NCBI GenBank assembly: GCA_009760855.2
Contig: WPIO01000186.1
Span: forward strand, 248,001 to 312,000
Length of the DNA stretch: 64,000 nt
DNA from: Cristatella mucedo
Lineage: Eukaryota; Bryozoa; Phylactolaemata; Cristatellidae
Direction: 5' to 3'
The notes below the pieces were generated by a model. The model was not told where the DNA came from. It was given only the letters and a program-made list of their open reading frames with translations, and did no database searches. This document shows, piece by piece, positions 1 to 57,076 of this stretch. How positions within the stretch are numbered: the first letter of the stretch is position 1; every line of letters starts with the position of its first letter. Both the position numbers and the translations under genes were made by a program.

Positions 1-350
1 AAGTTATTCTGATTATTATTTGACCGTAGCGCGTAAGAAATTACCTGCCTATGGACATCTAAACGCTTATCGCTTCGGGCTGCTGGGTTTCCCACGCCGG
101 CGGCTGCCTTAGCTTTGCCGGCGGCTATTAACCTGCTTGTTAGTTATGATCGTCAGCAGTTATCGCTTCATCATCGCAGATCAAATGCATTCCTATATAT
201 TAATGTTGTTGCTAAGATTCATGAACTATGCATTAACAAAAGAAAAGCACCCCATAGCCGCCGCGGTGGCCGGAACCGCCAGCTCAGACGCACCTCCTGG
301 AACGGGCTGGAACTGCGAGCTGAGTACCAGCTCGTTCGGTATTCCTAGCA
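1..350. other. unassigned 5' flank of a LINE
   Basis: No gene recognised. Short overlapping open frames occur in all registers without a known motif. The stretch from about 115 to 450 may be the 5' part of the LINE that follows, but no second copy of it is present in the window, so its boundary cannot be placed. Confidence 0.4.
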
Positions 351-3236
351 TTGTCTCGAACCACTCAGCACGCTCCCCCCATATGCGTCACTCTAGATTC
401 CTCAAACTTAGTGGTCATCAAGCCTGTTGTAACCCCATCGGTCAGACTTAGCGCTTGCCTTTGGAATCCTCGCTCAATGTGCAATAAATCTCTAGTAATA
501 AGCGACCTTATTTCTGAAAATGGTATCGACCTGCTCGCCCTAACTGAAACTTGGCTGAAATCGATTAACTGCCCGACAATTAAAGACGCTACTCCATCTG
601 GTTTCTCGTTCTTTCACACCCCTAGATCAATCAAAACTGGAGGTGGAGTTGCTATTGTCGTGCGCTCGAAATTCAACTTCAAGCCATTTGTGGTACCCTC
701 GAAGCAGTCTTTTGAATCAATTGTCCTGGTCTCACCCGAAAACAAGCTACCGATAGTGGTAGTAATTCTATCGCCCACCAGGTACTAAATCCTCCTTTAT
801 CTCGGATTTCTCCGATCTCATTTCGATTTTGTGTGCAAGAAATCGATCCTTCCTCGTTATGGGTGATATCAACGTTCACTTTGATAACTTATCTGACGCT
901 TTCAGCACCAAATTTCGTGCATTGACTGACTGATTGTCTCTTATGGCTCATGTGCATGGCCCTACCCACATCAAGGGTCACACACTCGACCAGATTTTCT
1001 CATACAACTGCACTTTGTCATCACCAATTATTACCAAATCCTGCTTATCTGACCACATGCAGATCTCATTCAATCTACAGTGTGTGCTCACATCCTCCTC
1101 TAAAATAACCTGTGACTCGCGAAACCTCAAGACCCTTGACATCGATGCTGTCCGTGCGAGAATATTTGCTTCACCTCTGCTGCTCAATCCTCCCTCCGAT
1201 CTGTCATCATTGGTAGATAGCTACAACACGACACTAGCTGACACAATCGACGAGTGTGCACCTCTGACAAAGCGCACTGTACGCCCCCACCCAGACGGCC
1301 TATGGTTTACCACGGACATTAAACTAGCCAAGTCTACTAAACGAAAGCTTGAAAAAGCATATAAAAGATCCGGACTAACTGTCCATCGACAGGCATATTA
1401 AGACTACTTTAGGTCGTACCAATCAATCCTAGAAAAGGCCAAGTCTAGCTTCTATAAAAACATTGTTGAATTACAGATGCACAATCCAAAAATGCTGATG
1501 TTGACAATAAACCATCTCCACAACCGGTCCCAGATTAGCTCCTTACCTGATGCTCCGTGTGATGATCTAGCCGATCGCTTCTCTCGATTCTTTATGCAGA
1601 AGATTGACAAGATCAGGGAATCCATCCCTGCGATGACAACCTCCCCACTAAAATGCGTTTCCCCGATTCCCGGCTGCACCTCATTGTCTACATTTAAGCA
1701 GGTCACTAGTGATCTAGTCCTAAAGTTCGTATCTCAATCAAAGAAGACAACAAGTCATTTGGACCCTATCCCCACTGTCCAGCTCCTACGTTTCATTGAT
1801 CTGCTGCTGCCATGCATAAATAACACGATTAATATGTCATTAGCCTTAGGTCATGTCCCAGCACCTTTCAAAAAAGCTGTAGTCAGGCCACTTCTCAAGA
1901 AAGCAACACTAGACCAAGAGAACTTAAGCAACTACCACCCAGTTTCCCTTCTACCATTCCTATCAAAGACACTGGAACGGGTCGTGGCGGACCAGCAGAA
2001 CTCGTATATCGAAACCTCACACCTTGCTAGTAAGTTCCAGTCTGGCTTTAGAGCTAATCACTCCACAGAGTCAGCATTGCTTAGGGTATACAACGACCTA
2101 CTTAGGAATGTAGACATGGGTAGACTGTCTCTGCTTGTTTTGCTTGATCTTTCGGCAGCTTTTGATGCCGTCGATCACAAAGTTCTTCTAGAGCGCCTCT
2201 CATCTCGCCTGGGCATCACTGGCACTGCTCTGCAGTGGTTCAGGTCCTATCTCAGTGGGAGACTCCAGAGTATTGACGTGAATGGACAAAGATCATCTGA
2301 AGTACCTCTGAAATATGGAGTACCTCAGGGCTCAGTGCTAGGTCCGGTTCTTTTCAAGGTTTATACTCTGCCTCTTGCTGATGTGATTGCCAAGCACAAT
2401 GTAGGCTTTCACTTCTATGCAGATGACACTCAGTTGTACCTTTGCTTTGATCCCTCCCAGCCTTCGAGTACCTCAAATTCTCTCAACTCACTAGCTGCAT
2501 GCATTGATGACATCCGCACATGGATGGCAGCAAATTTTCTAAAACTAAACGACGATAAAACTAACTTACTAGTTATGGGCAAACCCAGTGTGATTCAGTG
2601 ATTGGAAAGGCTGACTCTCAAAATTGGCTCTGCCAGCATATCTCCAGTTGAATCAGCTCGAAATCTAGGTGTCATATTCCAAAGCGACCTCTCCTTAGAC
2701 GACCATATCAGCTCCACGGTCAAATCTGCCTATTTTCAGCTTCGTAACATTGCTAAAATTCGGTCTTGTTTAGATAAAGATACCACATCTAAGTTGGTCC
2801 ATGCATTCGTGACATCCCGTCTCGACTTCTGCAACTCACTGCTTACTGGCCTACCAGCATGTGCAATCAGGAGATTTCAGCTGGTGTAAAACTCTGCAGC
2901 TAGGCTTGTCTGTCGTGAGCGTCGCAGTTGCCACATTACTCCACTTCTCGCCGACCTGCACTGGCTACCAGTCAAGCAACGGATTGACTTCAAGTTTTTG
3001 TCGCTCACTTTTAGGTCTCTTCATTCTACGGCTCCAGCCTATCTTTCAGAGATACTACCCCATCAGGCAAAGCATCGTACCACTCGCTTTTCGAATCAAA
3101 CTGCTTACCCATATCTAGCACAAATTTCAAATCCTTACGAAACCGTGCCTTTAGTTCGTATGCTCCCAAAGCCTAGTACTCGCTCCCGGCTTGCGTCACA
3201 ACATCTCCCGGCTCGTCCACATTTAAAAAGAAGCTA
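351..3236 (+). pseudogene. broken endonuclease-reverse transcriptase ORF of LINE family 1
   Basis: The reading frame is broken at several places. There is a frame change near 780-800, followed by in-frame stops at about 929-931, 1399-1401, 2599-2601 and 2887-2889, with further shifts near 2900-3000. Between these points the protein is well conserved. The endonuclease half lies in 351-1401. The reverse transcriptase lies in 1477-2601, a 374-codon open stretch holding the fingers/palm motifs and an intact YADD box. The C-terminal domain follows to about 3236. The copy is therefore inactive as it stands but young enough to be clearly readable. Confidence 0.85.
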
Positions 3237-3505
3237 AAAATGCATCTATTTGTCACTGCATTCAGTGGGTCCCTGTGATTCGTCCTTGATGTGCTTATGC
3301 GTGATGATACTGTGCATGCTTCCACTAACTATACTTGCATGCTGACCCTGTGCATGTAACCCCTAGCCGTGCTATTCTTGTTCTTTATTGAGCGTGCCAC
3401 AACAAACCATTCGATCGTGTACATTTGCAGCAAATGTACAGTGCCTAGAAAGATATTGAGTTTTCTGAGGGTGCTATATCAAGTACATTATTATTATTAT
3501 TATAG
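351..3505 (+). mobile_element. LINE family 1 (L2/CR1-like), nearly complete ORF2 copy with (ATT)n tail
   Basis: This is the longest LINE copy in the window. It runs from an apurinic-type endonuclease domain (about 450-1060; motif ALTETWL near 540) through a reverse transcriptase (about 1850-2480; LDLSAAFDAVDH, GVPQGSVLGP and the catalytic YADDTQLY) to a C-terminal region (LHWLPVKQRIDFK) and a 3' UTR. The UTR ends in the tail AAATGTACAGTGCC ... ATCAAGTAC followed by ATT repeats up to about 3503. ATT-type tails and this domain order are typical of the CR1/L2 group. No first open reading frame is visible, so the copy is probably 5'-truncated. It serves as reference for the other family 1 fragments. 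Confidence 0.9.
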
Positions 3506-16030: not shown

Positions 16031-17482
16031 TATGTCACATTAGTGGAGTACTGAGAATGGCTGTGGCTTCTGATGGACCTCAGTTGTCTTTGAAAATGGC
16101 AGACCTTGCCGGTCTCGAACAGTCGGGGCACAGACCTCCACGTCGTCACGAGGCCGTTCATATTCATAGAGCCAGTATAGCTGCGAATGCCCGACCACGA
16201 CTGTGGTATGACATGCGACCGTCATATTCAGAGGTCGAATTCACTAGTTGCACCGTCGTCGTGCTTCTTTGATAGCGTTAGTCTCTCTCGATGACCGTCT
16301 CTCTAATGCCAGCTATTTAGGCTGTGTTCACTTCTCCTTCGATGCCCACCGATTCCTAGGCAAGGCCGCCTGTGGAACGTGTCGTCAGCGCTTGGTGTGA
16401 TTGGCCGTACTTGGCTATTTGCCGACTGGTACGCGTGTTCGAGACTGAAAATGCATAGAAGCTTGAAAGAACGAGTGAGACTAGTATGGAGCAGAAGAAT
16501 TTGTGTCAGGTATTTCAAGCCACTGTATAGAAGCCACATTCTCGTACACCGTTGTCTCTGGTATCAGTGGAGACGAAACTATAGGTGGCATAGTGTGCTA
16601 TGCAGCAGTGTCCATAGTGCGACACTCTCTAGGCACGATATCGTATCTCTCCTTTGGTCTTTGCTGTAAGTGTACCTTTATCTTGGGATATTGTCTTCGA
16701 GGAATATGAAAAGTAATTCAGATTACTAAAGTTGATCGCAGCGCCAAAGAAGCTGTATCCGTAAGGCTGTGGGGGGGGCATTCCAAATTCGAAAAAAATA
16801 TTTATTTTCCCGATTAATGGACGTCTACTTTACCAAAAATACTGATTCAAAGATGCTTGTAGTTGCTACTGACCAAACCTATACCTCGCCTTTACCGACA
16901 GTCGGAAACTGACAGGAAATAATGTGCCTCTCACAATTCTCTGCTAATCTGCATATTACTTTGGAATTTAAATTAATAATGATAGGTCATTTACATAGCA
17001 CACTTATAGAACTTAATCTATATCCAGGCGCTTGACATGCACGGCGTCAAGCGTGCAAACGCTTGCAAGGATCATGCTTCGACCAGCATGCCAAAGCATG
17101 GAGACATGACCATGAACCACGGACCATACACCATGGAGACACTCTTGGCCATTGGTTGGAAAGACCTGTGGCTAGTAGCATGCTTGAATCATGCTCAGGT
17201 ACGCATGCAAAGGACACCGGAACACACAAAAAGAAGTTCCCTGTGGCGAACAGGTTGGTGATTGGAAAAGAGGTATCTTGAGCTGAGACGTAGAGGATGC
17301 AAGTTCATTGCAGGCAGTGGGTGACCTCGCCCTGCAGGCGCGAGTTCCAGACTTTATAGGCATACGAGCTGAAGAGTCGATATCCGAATGACTTCAATTT
17401 AATCCAACGGGCGGGTGGCAAAATGCTGATGAACAGGTGATGTGAGGGCTTGAGGAGCCAGGAGTTCGAACAGATAAGATAG

Positions 17483-17520
17483 GATAGGAGGTCGAGTAGG
17501 TAGGCTGGTGCAATTGACCT
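17483..17520. repeat. target-site duplication, left copy
   Basis: 38 bases beginning GATAGGAGGTCGAG; 33 of 38 match 18140-18177 (GATAAGAGGTCGGA...). Both are LINE sequence, so the pair is best read as a duplicated target site of the intervening element. Confidence 0.7.
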
Positions 17521-17524
17521 TGTT

Positions 17525-17564
<40 letters not shown>

Positions 17565-17949
17565 ATGACAAGTCGTTGCACTGGTAATCCTGCTCAGTAC
17601 GAGAGGAACAGCAGGCTCAGACATTTGGTTCATGTGCTTGGCTGAAAGGCCAATGGTGCGAAGCTACCATCTGGGGGGATTATGACTGGACGCCCCTAAG
17701 TCAGAATCCCGTCCATAAACGTAACGATACTTTCGGCGCCCTCTCGCAGGGAGGCGACGATATGCGCGGGTCGACCCAGCGGGTGGTGGCAAAGCCGCGG
17801 CGATTCGGATATTGGCGGGCGCGTAGTCGCGTCCCCAATCCGGCACGATAGCAAACCCATGCAGCGTGGAAGGTGCAAAATCATTCATAGATGACCTATG
17901 TCTCGGTCGGGGTGTCGTACTTAGTAGAGCAGCCACCTCACTGTGATCT
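17525..17949 (+). rRNA. 28S rRNA 3' fragment (retroposed, not functional)
   Basis: About 425 bases matching the 3' end of large-subunit rRNA. It starts at GGTTTAGACCGTCGTGAGAC, continues through the sarcin-ricin loop CAGTACGAGAGGAAC (about 17596) and GGTTCATGTGCTTGGCTGAAA, and ends near the 3' terminus (GTAGAGCAGCCACC, CACTGTGATCTT). The rest of the rRNA unit is absent on both sides. It is followed immediately by a SINE-A head. It is a fragment carried in a retroelement, not an rDNA unit. Several differences from conserved positions (for example CATCTGGGGGG for CATCTGTGGG) support a pseudogene. Confidence 0.9.
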
Positions 17950-17950
17950 T

Positions 17951-18139
17951 GGTGAGCCGTGATGGCACACTAGGTAAGGCAGTTGCTTTCGGGACCGAAG
18001 TCGTAGGTTCGATTCCTGCCGTTGGCGATTCTTTATCGCCACTGCAAACGGTGGTGATAGTCGTAAAGGCTCTTCTTTCGCTATACAAAAAGAGGCTGTT
18101 TAATCAGCTAAGATTTATTATTTATTTATTATTTTTATT
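17951..18139 (+). mobile_element. SINE-A fused to the 28S fragment
   Basis: Starts GGTGAGCCGTGATGGCACACTAGG directly after the 28S end. B box GGTTCGATTCC at about 18007, body CCACTGCAAACGGTGGTGATAG, then AAAGAGGCTGTTTAATCAGC and a (TTTATT)n tail. Together with the 28S segment it forms one 619-bp insertion. Confidence 0.85.
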
Positions 18140-18177
18140 GATAAGAGGTCGGATAGGTAGGCTGGTGTGATTGACCT
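18140..18177. repeat. target-site duplication, right copy
   Basis: Matches 17483-17520 at 33 of 38 positions; see the left copy. Confidence 0.7.
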
Positions 18178-18534
18178 GTAAGCCAGGCTTAGGATCTTGA
18201 TGGCCGTGGTGCTGCACCCTTTCGTGGCCAATGAATTTCTAAAGTTGGACCGTCCGGAAGTCTGCGCATGCATGTAACTTGGGATACATGTATCTGTCTG
18301 TATATCAATAACTACACAGAGCCACAAAGACTCGAGTGGGTTGTTAGGCTGGAGCATCTGTGGCATCAGCCAAAAGCTTAAGCATCTTTCGGTGCACAGG
18401 TGGAGGCCAACAAACTTCGTCGGGGCAATGCAGAGTAAGCGTGAACCACGTCAGAGTCGGAAATAATCAGAAATGATTATCGTGAAAGTGTCATATAGCC
18501 GGACGGCTAGACAAGATGAAAGGCCGACGGCTGC

Positions 18535-18650
18535 GTAGAATCCTGCAGTCGGTCGACCCTGCATTGCCAACTGCAAGCGGTAGTGATAACCTATAAGGCT
18601 CTTCTGCCGCTATACAAATGATGCTCTTAAATCAGCTGGCGTTTACCTTT
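18535..18650 (+). mobile_element. SINE-A 3' half
   Basis: CTGCAAGCGGTAGTGATAAC, GGCTCTTCTGCCGCTATAC and TCTTAAATCAGC are present; the A-box region is missing or decayed. Confidence 0.6.
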
Positions 18651-29234: not shown

Positions 29235-29412
29235 GAAGCGTCAAAAGAAACTTGGTTAATGAGCTCAAGGGTAAGGTGCTCAATATTCACGATTCGGATC
29301 CTGGGTTCGAGTCCTGCAGTGGGCAATCCGTAATTGCCAACTGCATCCGGTGTGATAGCTGTTTAGGTTCTTTTGCCTCAATATAAATGAGGCTGTTACA
29401 TCAGCCAACCTT
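29235..29412 (+). mobile_element. SINE-A-related copy
   Basis: AGCTCAAGGGTAAGGTGCTC, TGGGTTCGAGTCCTGC (B box, about 29302), CCAACTGCATCCGGTGTGAT and GAGGCTGTTACATCAGCC. It ends about 150 bases before exon 3 of the claudin-like gene. Confidence 0.7.
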
Positions 29413-29557
29413 GTTATTATTAGTATCATTATTTTGCACTGTGCTTGCACTTGTGCTCTCGTAATTCTATTTCGTGTTCAAAACCGCAGCAGTAAAGGAG
29501 CATTGACAGACACAAAGGCAGTCTCCCGATTAGTGCTTCGGGTCTTGTGTTTTCCAG

Positions 29558-30975
29558 CAATCCTTCAGATCGTGGAGCCGTCGGTATTCCACTATAACTA
29601 CGATAAGAACTCCGCCACGTTCTACACCGTCCCCCAAGGCGGCGCACCCTTGTACTACAGCGGCGGCTTCGCTGTCACCATCGTCGCCGCCTTCTTCTGC
29701 ATAGCGTCGACCGTTTTGGGCGGGCTCCTCTTCGTTGGCGTCTGCCGCAAGGCATCGCGAGTGCTGGGCGAGAACTACATCGAGAAAAAGATGGGCGGCA
29801 GCATCGGCGGAGCCGGCGACCTCAGCGCGGCCTCGTTAGCTTACAACCGCCGCGAGGGCGAGCGCCGGGCTGAGGCCGACGGCGCCGATCTCATCGAGAA
29901 GCTCACCGCGCACTCGCAGCAGCAGTCGCCGGCTTTTGTCGATGCGGTCAGCCGTGCGGCGTCGGGCGACTACAGGAGCGGAGAGCCGCCGCGAGCGTCC
30001 TACACCCCGTCCCGATACGCAGCAGCGACCGCCGACGATCAGCGAGGCGGAGGCGGCGACCGGGCGTCGCTGGTCAGCAGCCTGACAGGCTCGCAGCAGC
30101 AGCGTCCGGTGCCGGCGCCGAGGCGCTCGCTATCCAGCAGGTCGCAGGACGGCCTGCACCGGCCGCCGTCCGAGGAGCCAGAGCAGCCCGCATGGCCGCC
30201 GAGCCGCCGCGGTGGCGAGGCCGCCGCCGCGGCTCGGTCGTCGGCCCACGAGCTTCGCCACGGCAGCGATCATTCGGCGACCAAGAGCGGCCGCGAGCGA
30301 GCAGCGATAGAGGTGGCCAGCGAGTACGGCGACGGCGGCGGCGGCAGTAGCCGCAGGCGCTACAGCGCCGGAAGCAGCTATCGTCCGCAGCAGCCGGCTG
30401 CTGCTTCCGCCGCCGTAGCGCGGCCGCCGTCGATCAGCTCCGGCGGCGGCGGCACATCCGGCCCACGGCAGCAGCCTGAAGACTCGCGAAGTGGCGGAAG
30501 TGCGAGGCGACCCGGAGACCTGTCGCTGGGGCAGGGCAGCCTGCCGCTAAGCTCCACTTCGGGCGGAGGCGGCGGCGGAGGCGAAAGCCATCCGACGTCG
30601 CTGACCTCGACCGACATTAGCGTGGCTGCCAGCGTTCATTACGAGTCCAATCCGGCCAGCGGCTACAAGCCCAAGGAGCTGGCCATGCTTCGCTTCATCA
30701 GCGACCGCAGCCAGGCGGCTAACGCTGCCGCGGCGGCCAGGGCCTCGATGGAGCGGAGCAGAAGCAGCGGCGGCGGCAGCAGCAGCAGGGGGTCGGAGAG
30801 AGGGCAGCAGCCTCGGCAATCGACGGGGGCTTCTGGGCCCACGAGTCCCGTCGTACTCAAGAGCCCCGTCGGACCCAAGAGCCCGTCGTCGGCTGCGGCA
30901 GAGGGCGGCCCTCAGCCACCGGCGCTTAGCTCCACGCCCTCGACTAAGAAGAACTCGATCTACGTTTCCTACTGA
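29558..30975 (+). CDS. claudin/PMP22-like tetraspan protein, exon 3 (TM3 end, TM4 and long tail)
   Basis: Encodes residues 155-626. The acceptor is TGTGTTTTCCAG|CA at 29557/29558; its two leading bases complete the exon 2 codon. It finishes TM3, has a second extracellular loop (about 161-188, rich in Tyr), TM4 (about 189-216), then a cytoplasmic tail of about 410 residues. The tail is low in complexity: Ser/Gly/Ala/Arg-rich, with Gly runs, Gln-Gln-Gln, Pro-rich PAPRRSLSSRS and SPVVLKSPVGPKSPSS. It ends KKNSIYVSY before TGA. Ordinary claudins have tails of some 20-60 residues, so this one is exceptional. Codons are strongly G/C-ending, unlike the flanking repeats. Confidence 0.8.
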
Positions 30976-45988: not shown

Positions 45989-46158
45989 AGAGAGAGAGAC
46001 AGAGAGAGGGAGAGAGAGAGAGAAAGAAAGAGTGAAAGAGAGGGAGAGAGAGCGAGAGAACGAGAGCAAGAGAGAGAGAGAGAGAGAGAGAAAGGGAAAG
46101 AGAGAGAAAGGCAGGAAAGAGAGAGAGGGGAGAGACGGGAGAAAAAGAGAGAAGGGGC

Positions 46159-46195
<37 letters not shown>

Positions 46196-46393
46196 GGAGA
46201 GAGAGGGAACGAGAGAGGGGAGAGAGAGTTAAAGAGAGTGAGAGAGATGAGAGAGGGGGAAAGGAGAGAGATAAAGATGGAGAAAGAGAGAAAAAGAGAG
46301 AGAGATTGAAAGTTAAAGAGAGAGAGAGAGAGATAGATAGAAGTTAGAGAGAGATAGAGTTTAAGAGAGAGAGAGAGAGAGACAGAGAGAGAG
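45989..46393. repeat. GA-rich simple-repeat array
   Basis: About 400 bases of GAGA with interspersed A, G, C and T. Open frames of Ser-Leu or Arg-Glu repeats here are artefacts. Confidence 0.95.
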
Positions 46394-53142: not shown

Positions 53143-53625
<483 letters not shown>

Positions 53626-54227: not shown

Positions 54228-54395
54228 CTGGTGGAGATAATTACTTTACTGCTGGGCAAGCCTCTTTGCTTGTAGGATTGTCCATGGCTCGAGTGTCGCT
54301 CTGCTGTGCAAACCACTGGTGCTGATTGCTATGGGATTAACAAGTTAAAGTATTGCCGACAAAAGCAGGTACACAGTGAGAAACAGACAATAGAG

Positions 54396-57076
<2,681 letters not shown>

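Follow-up and report, generated by a model that had tools for sequence, protein, structure and literature searches.

A 28S rRNA segment fused to a tRNA-type SINE within one target-site duplication in the bryozoan Cristatella mucedo

SINE families headed by 28S rRNA are described in the accessible parts of the corresponding papers for mammals (SINE28) and for the budgerigar (MeloSINE), and in both the 3′ portion of 28S serves as the 5′ head (PMC8010984, PMC3576234, PMC4844689, PMC7245038). In Magnaporthe, chimeric retrogenes attributed to template switching by a LINE (WEIRD-MgSINE and MINE) join two unrelated transcripts directly, with the retroelement on the 3′ side; WEIRD-MgSINE is a SINE chimera (PMC2104539, accessible sections). 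Chimeras of 28S rRNA with LINE-1 are reported in the available portion of PMC13174262, where 18 are described, 83% of them in the sense orientation, and the sense ones are attributed either to template switching or to the ligation of RNAs. For PittSINE, the available text of PMC5729268 proposes an origin in which the template was switched, at the 5′ end, from a SINE to a different structural RNA.

Here, we analyzed a 64-kb stretch of C. mucedo DNA (hereafter, the window), in which a 619-bp composite at 17521–18139 consists of a 28S rRNA 3′ segment followed directly, in the same orientation, by a SINE. The composite resembles the Magnaporthe chimeras in its direct fusion of two transcripts with the retroelement 3′, in the single pair of direct repeats around the whole and in drawing its 5′ part from an abundant non-coding RNA, but this part is 28S rRNA and the duplication measures 38 bp, against the 10–20 bp (12 bp for WEIRD-MgSINE) given in the accessible sections of PMC2104539. 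Like the 28S/LINE-1 chimeras of PMC13174262, as far as the available portion describes them, it carries sense 28S 5′ of a retroelement in one insertion, and its 430 nt fall within their range of 50–482 nt; unlike them, the retroelement is a SINE, and the segment comes from the 3′ region of 28S, not from the region most used there.

The comparison with the 28S-headed families is closest in the origin of the head, the 28S 3′ portion. In contrast to SINE28 and MeloSINE as the accessible parts of their papers present them, the composite is represented by one clear locus and has an end-to-end tRNA-type SINE behind the 28S. It also differs from SINE28 in missing the last 32 nt of 28S, which the published SINE28 oligo covers (PMC3576234, accessible part), although reaching the 28S end is not certainly family-defining. 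The composite shares with PittSINE the proposed mode of origin, while the new head of PittSINE, according to the available text of PMC5729268, is a tRNA with promoter components and founded a family. No 28S-tRNA-SINE chimera like the composite was found in the open-licence literature searched, mostly at listing level. On the best reading, the composite is a new example of the known chimeric retrocopies.

The inserted unit and its target

The composite is bounded by direct repeats on the plus strand, the 5′ copy at 17483–17520 and the 3′ copy at 18140–18177. They are identical at 33 of 38 positions, and all five differences are transitions. The repeat score around the whole unit was reached by none of 1000 shuffles; neither the 28S part alone (694/1000 shuffles as good) nor the SINE alone (626/1000) has a flanking repeat of its own. 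We read the 38-bp repeats as the target-site duplication of one insertion. The junction between the two parts is present once in the window in a search allowing up to 3 mismatches, with 0 expected.

The host LINE, in which the 5′ copy of the duplication is located, is read from the minus strand. Peptide matches, which set its limits approximately, place the C-terminal coding part of this LINE at 17341–17482 (minus strand) on one side of the target and an adjoining part of the LINE at 18178–18198 (minus strand) on the other. We take the element to be of CR1/L2 type on the basis of the peptides, the reverse transcriptase and endonuclease domains of another LINE in the window and the 3′ ends of the window LINEs. 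The two flanks were joined without the insert and compared with four LINE peptides from the window. The joined flanks scored above either flank for two of the peptides (36.2 versus 32.7 and 25.8 bits, and 32.7 versus 26.2 and 13.5 bits), brought no gain for a third (26.6 versus 26.9 bits for the right flank) and gave no significant match to the fourth; with this outcome, the target is continuous once the insert is left out.

With the flanks joined, the CR1/L2-type LINE can again be read in antisense, and the unit thus arrived in a single insertion. The repeats are read as a target-site duplication and not as a LINE tandem because the flanks hold different, adjoining LINE parts. The sequence-only reading had placed a 619-bp unit between 38-bp repeats (33/38) in a host LINE and had regarded the fusion as inserted in one event, to be abandoned if the junction was missing elsewhere and the repeats proved to belong to an ordinary LINE tandem. 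The same figures were recovered here, the single duplication around the whole and the restored target uphold the single insertion, and the repeats are not such a tandem.

Two other origins were rejected. The different, adjoining LINE parts in the two flanks speak against a LINE tandem having supplied the 38-bp repeats, and the lack of a duplication of its own around the SINE speaks against its landing alone beside an old 28S pseudogene.

The 38-bp duplication is unusually long for SINE-A, the SINE to which the composite's copy belongs. Among 48 other SINE loci of the genome, a flank match scoring 9 or more was found at five (L013, L024, L026, L035 and L042), these matches being mostly tail-like, simple-repeat or offset. 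For nine other SINE copies in the window, the best shuffle frequencies ranged from 0.08 to 0.90, and none of their candidate duplications was convincing. Either SINE-A usually leaves short or no duplications, or the scan misses them. At L024, a 15-bp AT repeat lies directly at the SINE start and may be a real duplication.

The window also contains a CR1/L2-type LINE at 324–3503, whose endonuclease (PF03372) and reverse transcriptase (PF00078) domains fall in different open stretches and whose 3′ end is (ATT)n-like; many truncated relatives are spread over the window. Long GA-rich simple repeats at 54392–57074, 53144–53612 and 45989–46393 are open in several reading frames, and these open frames are probably not genes. 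A 538-codon open frame at 29359–30975 is GC-rich, with a hydrophobic stretch and a tail rich in Ser, Gly and Ala; it has no Pfam match, carries a decayed SINE-A (29270–29405) at its 5′ edge and is possibly a real last exon.

The two parts of the composite

The 28S rRNA 3′ segment, identified with Rfam and by comparison with an oligo, occupies 17521–17950 on the plus strand and is truncated at its 5′ end. With default filters, the Rfam model LSU_rRNA_eukarya matched 17572–17728 (E 2.8e-30), the sole match at gathering threshold in the whole 64 kb. With relaxed filters on 17400–18250, the match extended over the 28S part as far as the 3′ region (E 6.8e-45), the alignment also stretching slightly into the flank and the SINE. 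Among 116 strongly conserved Rfam positions, taken from blocks chosen as confidently aligned, 11 are changed, in keeping with a decaying copy.

The 3′ limit was set against the SINE28 oligo printed in the accessible part of PMC3576234, used as the reference for the 28S 3′ end. By this published oligo, the homology stops at 17949 (GATCT), 32 nt short of the 28S end, and the remaining 32 nt of 28S match the sequence after 17949 no better than shuffled letters do (664/1000 shuffles as good). Base 17950 (T) can be assigned to neither the 28S nor the SINE side. The fragment had earlier been given as 425 bp of 28S; its identity is borne out, and its length is now 429–430 bp.

Five other 28S remnants in the genome (L002, L003, an inverted piece in L004, L007 and L032) do not stop at GATCT but extend into the 28S end. 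Beyond this end, a similar stretch, recognized by eye, is common to L002, L007 and L032. The stretch is probably the 3′ spacer, and these three loci are probably dispersed rDNA-derived DNA fragments rather than processed copies.

The SINE-A part lies at 17951–18139 on the plus strand, from its head to a T/A-rich tail. It contains a Pol III A-box-like motif at 17963–17974 (plus strand, one mismatch to TRGYNNARYNGG), starting 12 bases after the SINE start, and an exact B box, GGTTCGANNCC, at 18006–18016 (plus strand); we take both reference motifs to be the Pol III consensus. The window holds 11 matches to the SINE consensus built from it, from which the composite's copy is 12.3% diverged over 163 positions. 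This copy runs end to end, yet is missing ~9 nt between the A and B boxes relative to the window consensus. A full SINE-A directly after the 28S had thus been described correctly as to its ends and the missing spacer, but not as to completeness between the boxes.

Seven of the 11 window matches begin at the tRNA-like head, so this SINE exists complete without 28S. Its A and B boxes, its dispersed copies with a common 5′ start and its repetitive tail are those of a tRNA-type SINE. ARAGORN at default settings found no tRNA fold in the window, and with a lowered threshold gave only low-scoring, uninformative folds for the SINE head. RNA folding of the SINE gave an uninformative z of −1.95, and when its tail was compared with the 3′ ends of 13 window LINE copies, no match was convincing. 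Another 3′ fragment of SINE-A lies in the same orientation at 18538–18644, ~400 bp downstream of the composite.

At 23 of 49 loci, the letters CTT immediately precede the SINE start GGTGAGCC, a count biased by a locus list ranked by likeness to the composite's copy, which itself has CTT. The breakpoint is therefore uncertain by ~3 nt: the true SINE start may lie as much as 3 nt further 5′, in which case CT would be common to the SINE and the 28S at the junction. The recurrent CTT either belongs to the SINE as a previously unrecognized 5′ terminus or reflects a preference in target choice.

Further copies and other 28S/SINE contacts

The assembly from which the window comes (572,011,866 bases in 688 contigs) was searched for further copies. 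Querying with 141 nt that had the junction at their centre yielded 40 matches (the best 40 of 1619 candidates), the query being covered in full at the composite alone (255 bits); the next match scored 109 bits, and among the other SINE matches L046 reached furthest into the 28S side, by 19 nt. With the whole unit as query (the best 40 of 4734 candidates), 44 matches were obtained, and each of those at other loci fell within one of the two parts, 28S or SINE, overrunning the junction by no more than a few bases. The 28S and the SINE are thus each found separately elsewhere in the genome. A scan of viral contigs for the junction gave 0 matches, which is uninformative for a cellular genome.

We then looked for 28S within 450 bp upstream of 49 distinct SINE-A loci, drawn from L001–L060 and ranked by likeness to the composite's copy. 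The score was 429 at the composite and 17 at the next locus, and clear 28S was present at one of the 49. As far as it was feasible, the copy-number test therefore gave one full junction (best 40 of 1619 candidates) and one SINE locus of 49 where multiple dispersed copies mark a 28S-headed family, and for this reason the composite is not assigned to such a family.

L046 (G000:C222:8385571-8385666) deserves separate mention. Directly before CTT and GGTGAGCC, 12 of 16 letters there match the 28S end in register; the best of the other 48 loci besides L046 reaches 6 of 16. Under a simple 25% model, loci as good as L046 are expected 0.002 times among 48, 0.06 times among 1619 candidates and 0.18 times among 4734. 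Shuffling the 28S letters gave a match of this level among the 48 loci in 4 of 2000 trials, and in gapped alignment L046 scored 24, while the two loci ranked after it scored 22. No 28S was found further upstream of L046 and no convincing flanking duplication around it (94/500 shuffles as good). L046 may be a selected chance match or a 5′-truncated sister of the composite, and because of it we gave somewhat more weight to a family and somewhat less to a single event.

A low-copy 28S-headed SINE family in the lineage, like SINE28 or MeloSINE, with the composite as one member, is quite improbable in our estimate. Its precedents are the 28S 3′-derived SINE heads published, in the accessible parts of PMC4844689, PMC7245038 and PMC8010984, for mammals and the budgerigar; L046 has its 28S-like stretch of 16 nt just where a 5′-truncated sister would have one, and the searches scored only the best 40 of the 1619 junction candidates and of the 4734 whole-unit candidates. 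However, these best-scoring junction candidates include no second full-length junction, the match at L046 is within chance for the candidates ranked, its duplication is unconvincing, and the SINE promoter lies downstream of a head that itself carries a TTTT run at 17552.

The sequence-only reading had left the choice between a new SINE family and a one-off template switch to a genome-wide search for the junction. That search returned no clear second copy among the best 40 of 1619 candidates, the short 28S-like stretch at L046 being doubtful. A one-off event fits better, and a founder of a new family is judged unlikely, with L046 left as possible.

Contacts of other kinds between 28S and SINE-A do occur. 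A SINE-A match lies within ~1.5 kb of three of the five fetched 28S remnants (L002, L003 and L004), and such neighbours are expected, since the 64-kb window alone holds 11 SINE matches. At L002, a SINE in the same sense begins ~550 bp after the 28S remnant, beyond the 450-bp limit of the upstream scan. At L004 (positions 1501–2055, G000:C37:505407-505961), a 28S remnant is followed by an inverted 28S piece fused directly to an inverted, truncated SINE-A piece. Chance neighbourhood of 28S fragments of different extent and other SINEs had been named in advance as an observation that would count against the fusion; other arrangements do exist near these three remnants, but neither L002 nor L004 shares the junction of the composite.

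These neighbours bear on an origin in two steps, either as two successive insertions or as an rDNA fragment that DNA repair joined in and next to which a SINE inserted afterwards. Dispersed 28S remnants with an apparent 3′ spacer (L002, L007 and L032) and the proximity of SINE-A to three of the five fetched loci would provide the ingredients. At the composite, however, one long repeat bounds both parts and neither has its own, the 28S part is without 3′ spacer, and the SINE begins at its own 5′ end at the junction; we hold two events to be highly improbable.

Origin of the fusion

The order of 28S and then SINE in the same sense, with one duplication around both, is the product expected if target-primed copying of a SINE RNA is followed by a move to 28S RNA. 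The composite is thus probably the result of a single chimeric retrotransposition, with a template switch from SINE RNA to 28S rRNA as the most likely route. Target-primed at a nick within an older copy of a LINE, a LINE reverse transcriptase would have copied a SINE-A RNA through to the SINE 5′ end and moved to a 28S rRNA, entering it 32 nt before its 3′ end. It would then have copied ~430 nt of 28S, and the joining of the cDNA to the target would have duplicated 38 bp. Landing 32 nt inside 28S would need an internal jump or a shortened 28S RNA, which counts against this route.

Fusion might instead have come first, at the level of RNA: a 28S fragment would have been ligated to a SINE RNA, or Pol I would have transcribed through a SINE residing in a 28S gene, and the resulting joint RNA would have undergone retrotransposition once, starting from the SINE tail. 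The product would be the same, a sense fusion with one duplication and the 28S cut inside. RNA ligation is named beside template switching for the sense 28S/LINE-1 chimeras (PMC13174262, available portion), and the fused inverted pieces at L004 indicate that a SINE piece within a 28S remnant does occur. Read-through is opposed by the five other remnants (L002, L003, the inverted piece of L004, L007 and L032), all of which run into the 28S end and none of which has SINE-A at that 28S position, a weak argument as none resembles functional rDNA. Taken together, we consider a prior fusion of RNAs unlikely, though a serious competitor to the template switch.

A bolder scenario would make the composite part of something recurrent. 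It could be a rare low-copy 28S-headed SINE with a complete tRNA-type promoter, with L046 as a 5′-truncated sister and further copies hidden among repeats that are unassembled or unscored; alternatively, a SINE-A resident in a 28S gene could repeatedly seed retrocopies through Pol I transcripts. This we regard as a long shot.

Under the favoured template switch, the 28S head would be an expected dead end; the copy has decayed since its insertion. With the internal Pol III promoter placed 3′ of the junction, transcripts should begin close to the first base of the SINE and leave the head out. A TTTT run acts as a Pol III stop; the one at 17552, within the 28S head, would by its position stop Pol III in the head. 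The downstream promoter and this run together offer a reason why the fusion did not spread.

The composite is a clean case, decayed but readable, of what is regarded as the first step in the acquisition of new 5′ heads by SINEs. Its junction, duplication and target can all be read, and a 28S head beyond the reach of the internal promoter would explain the lack of spread. To our knowledge, few 28S-headed SINE families have been described, which makes failed founders a useful contrast.
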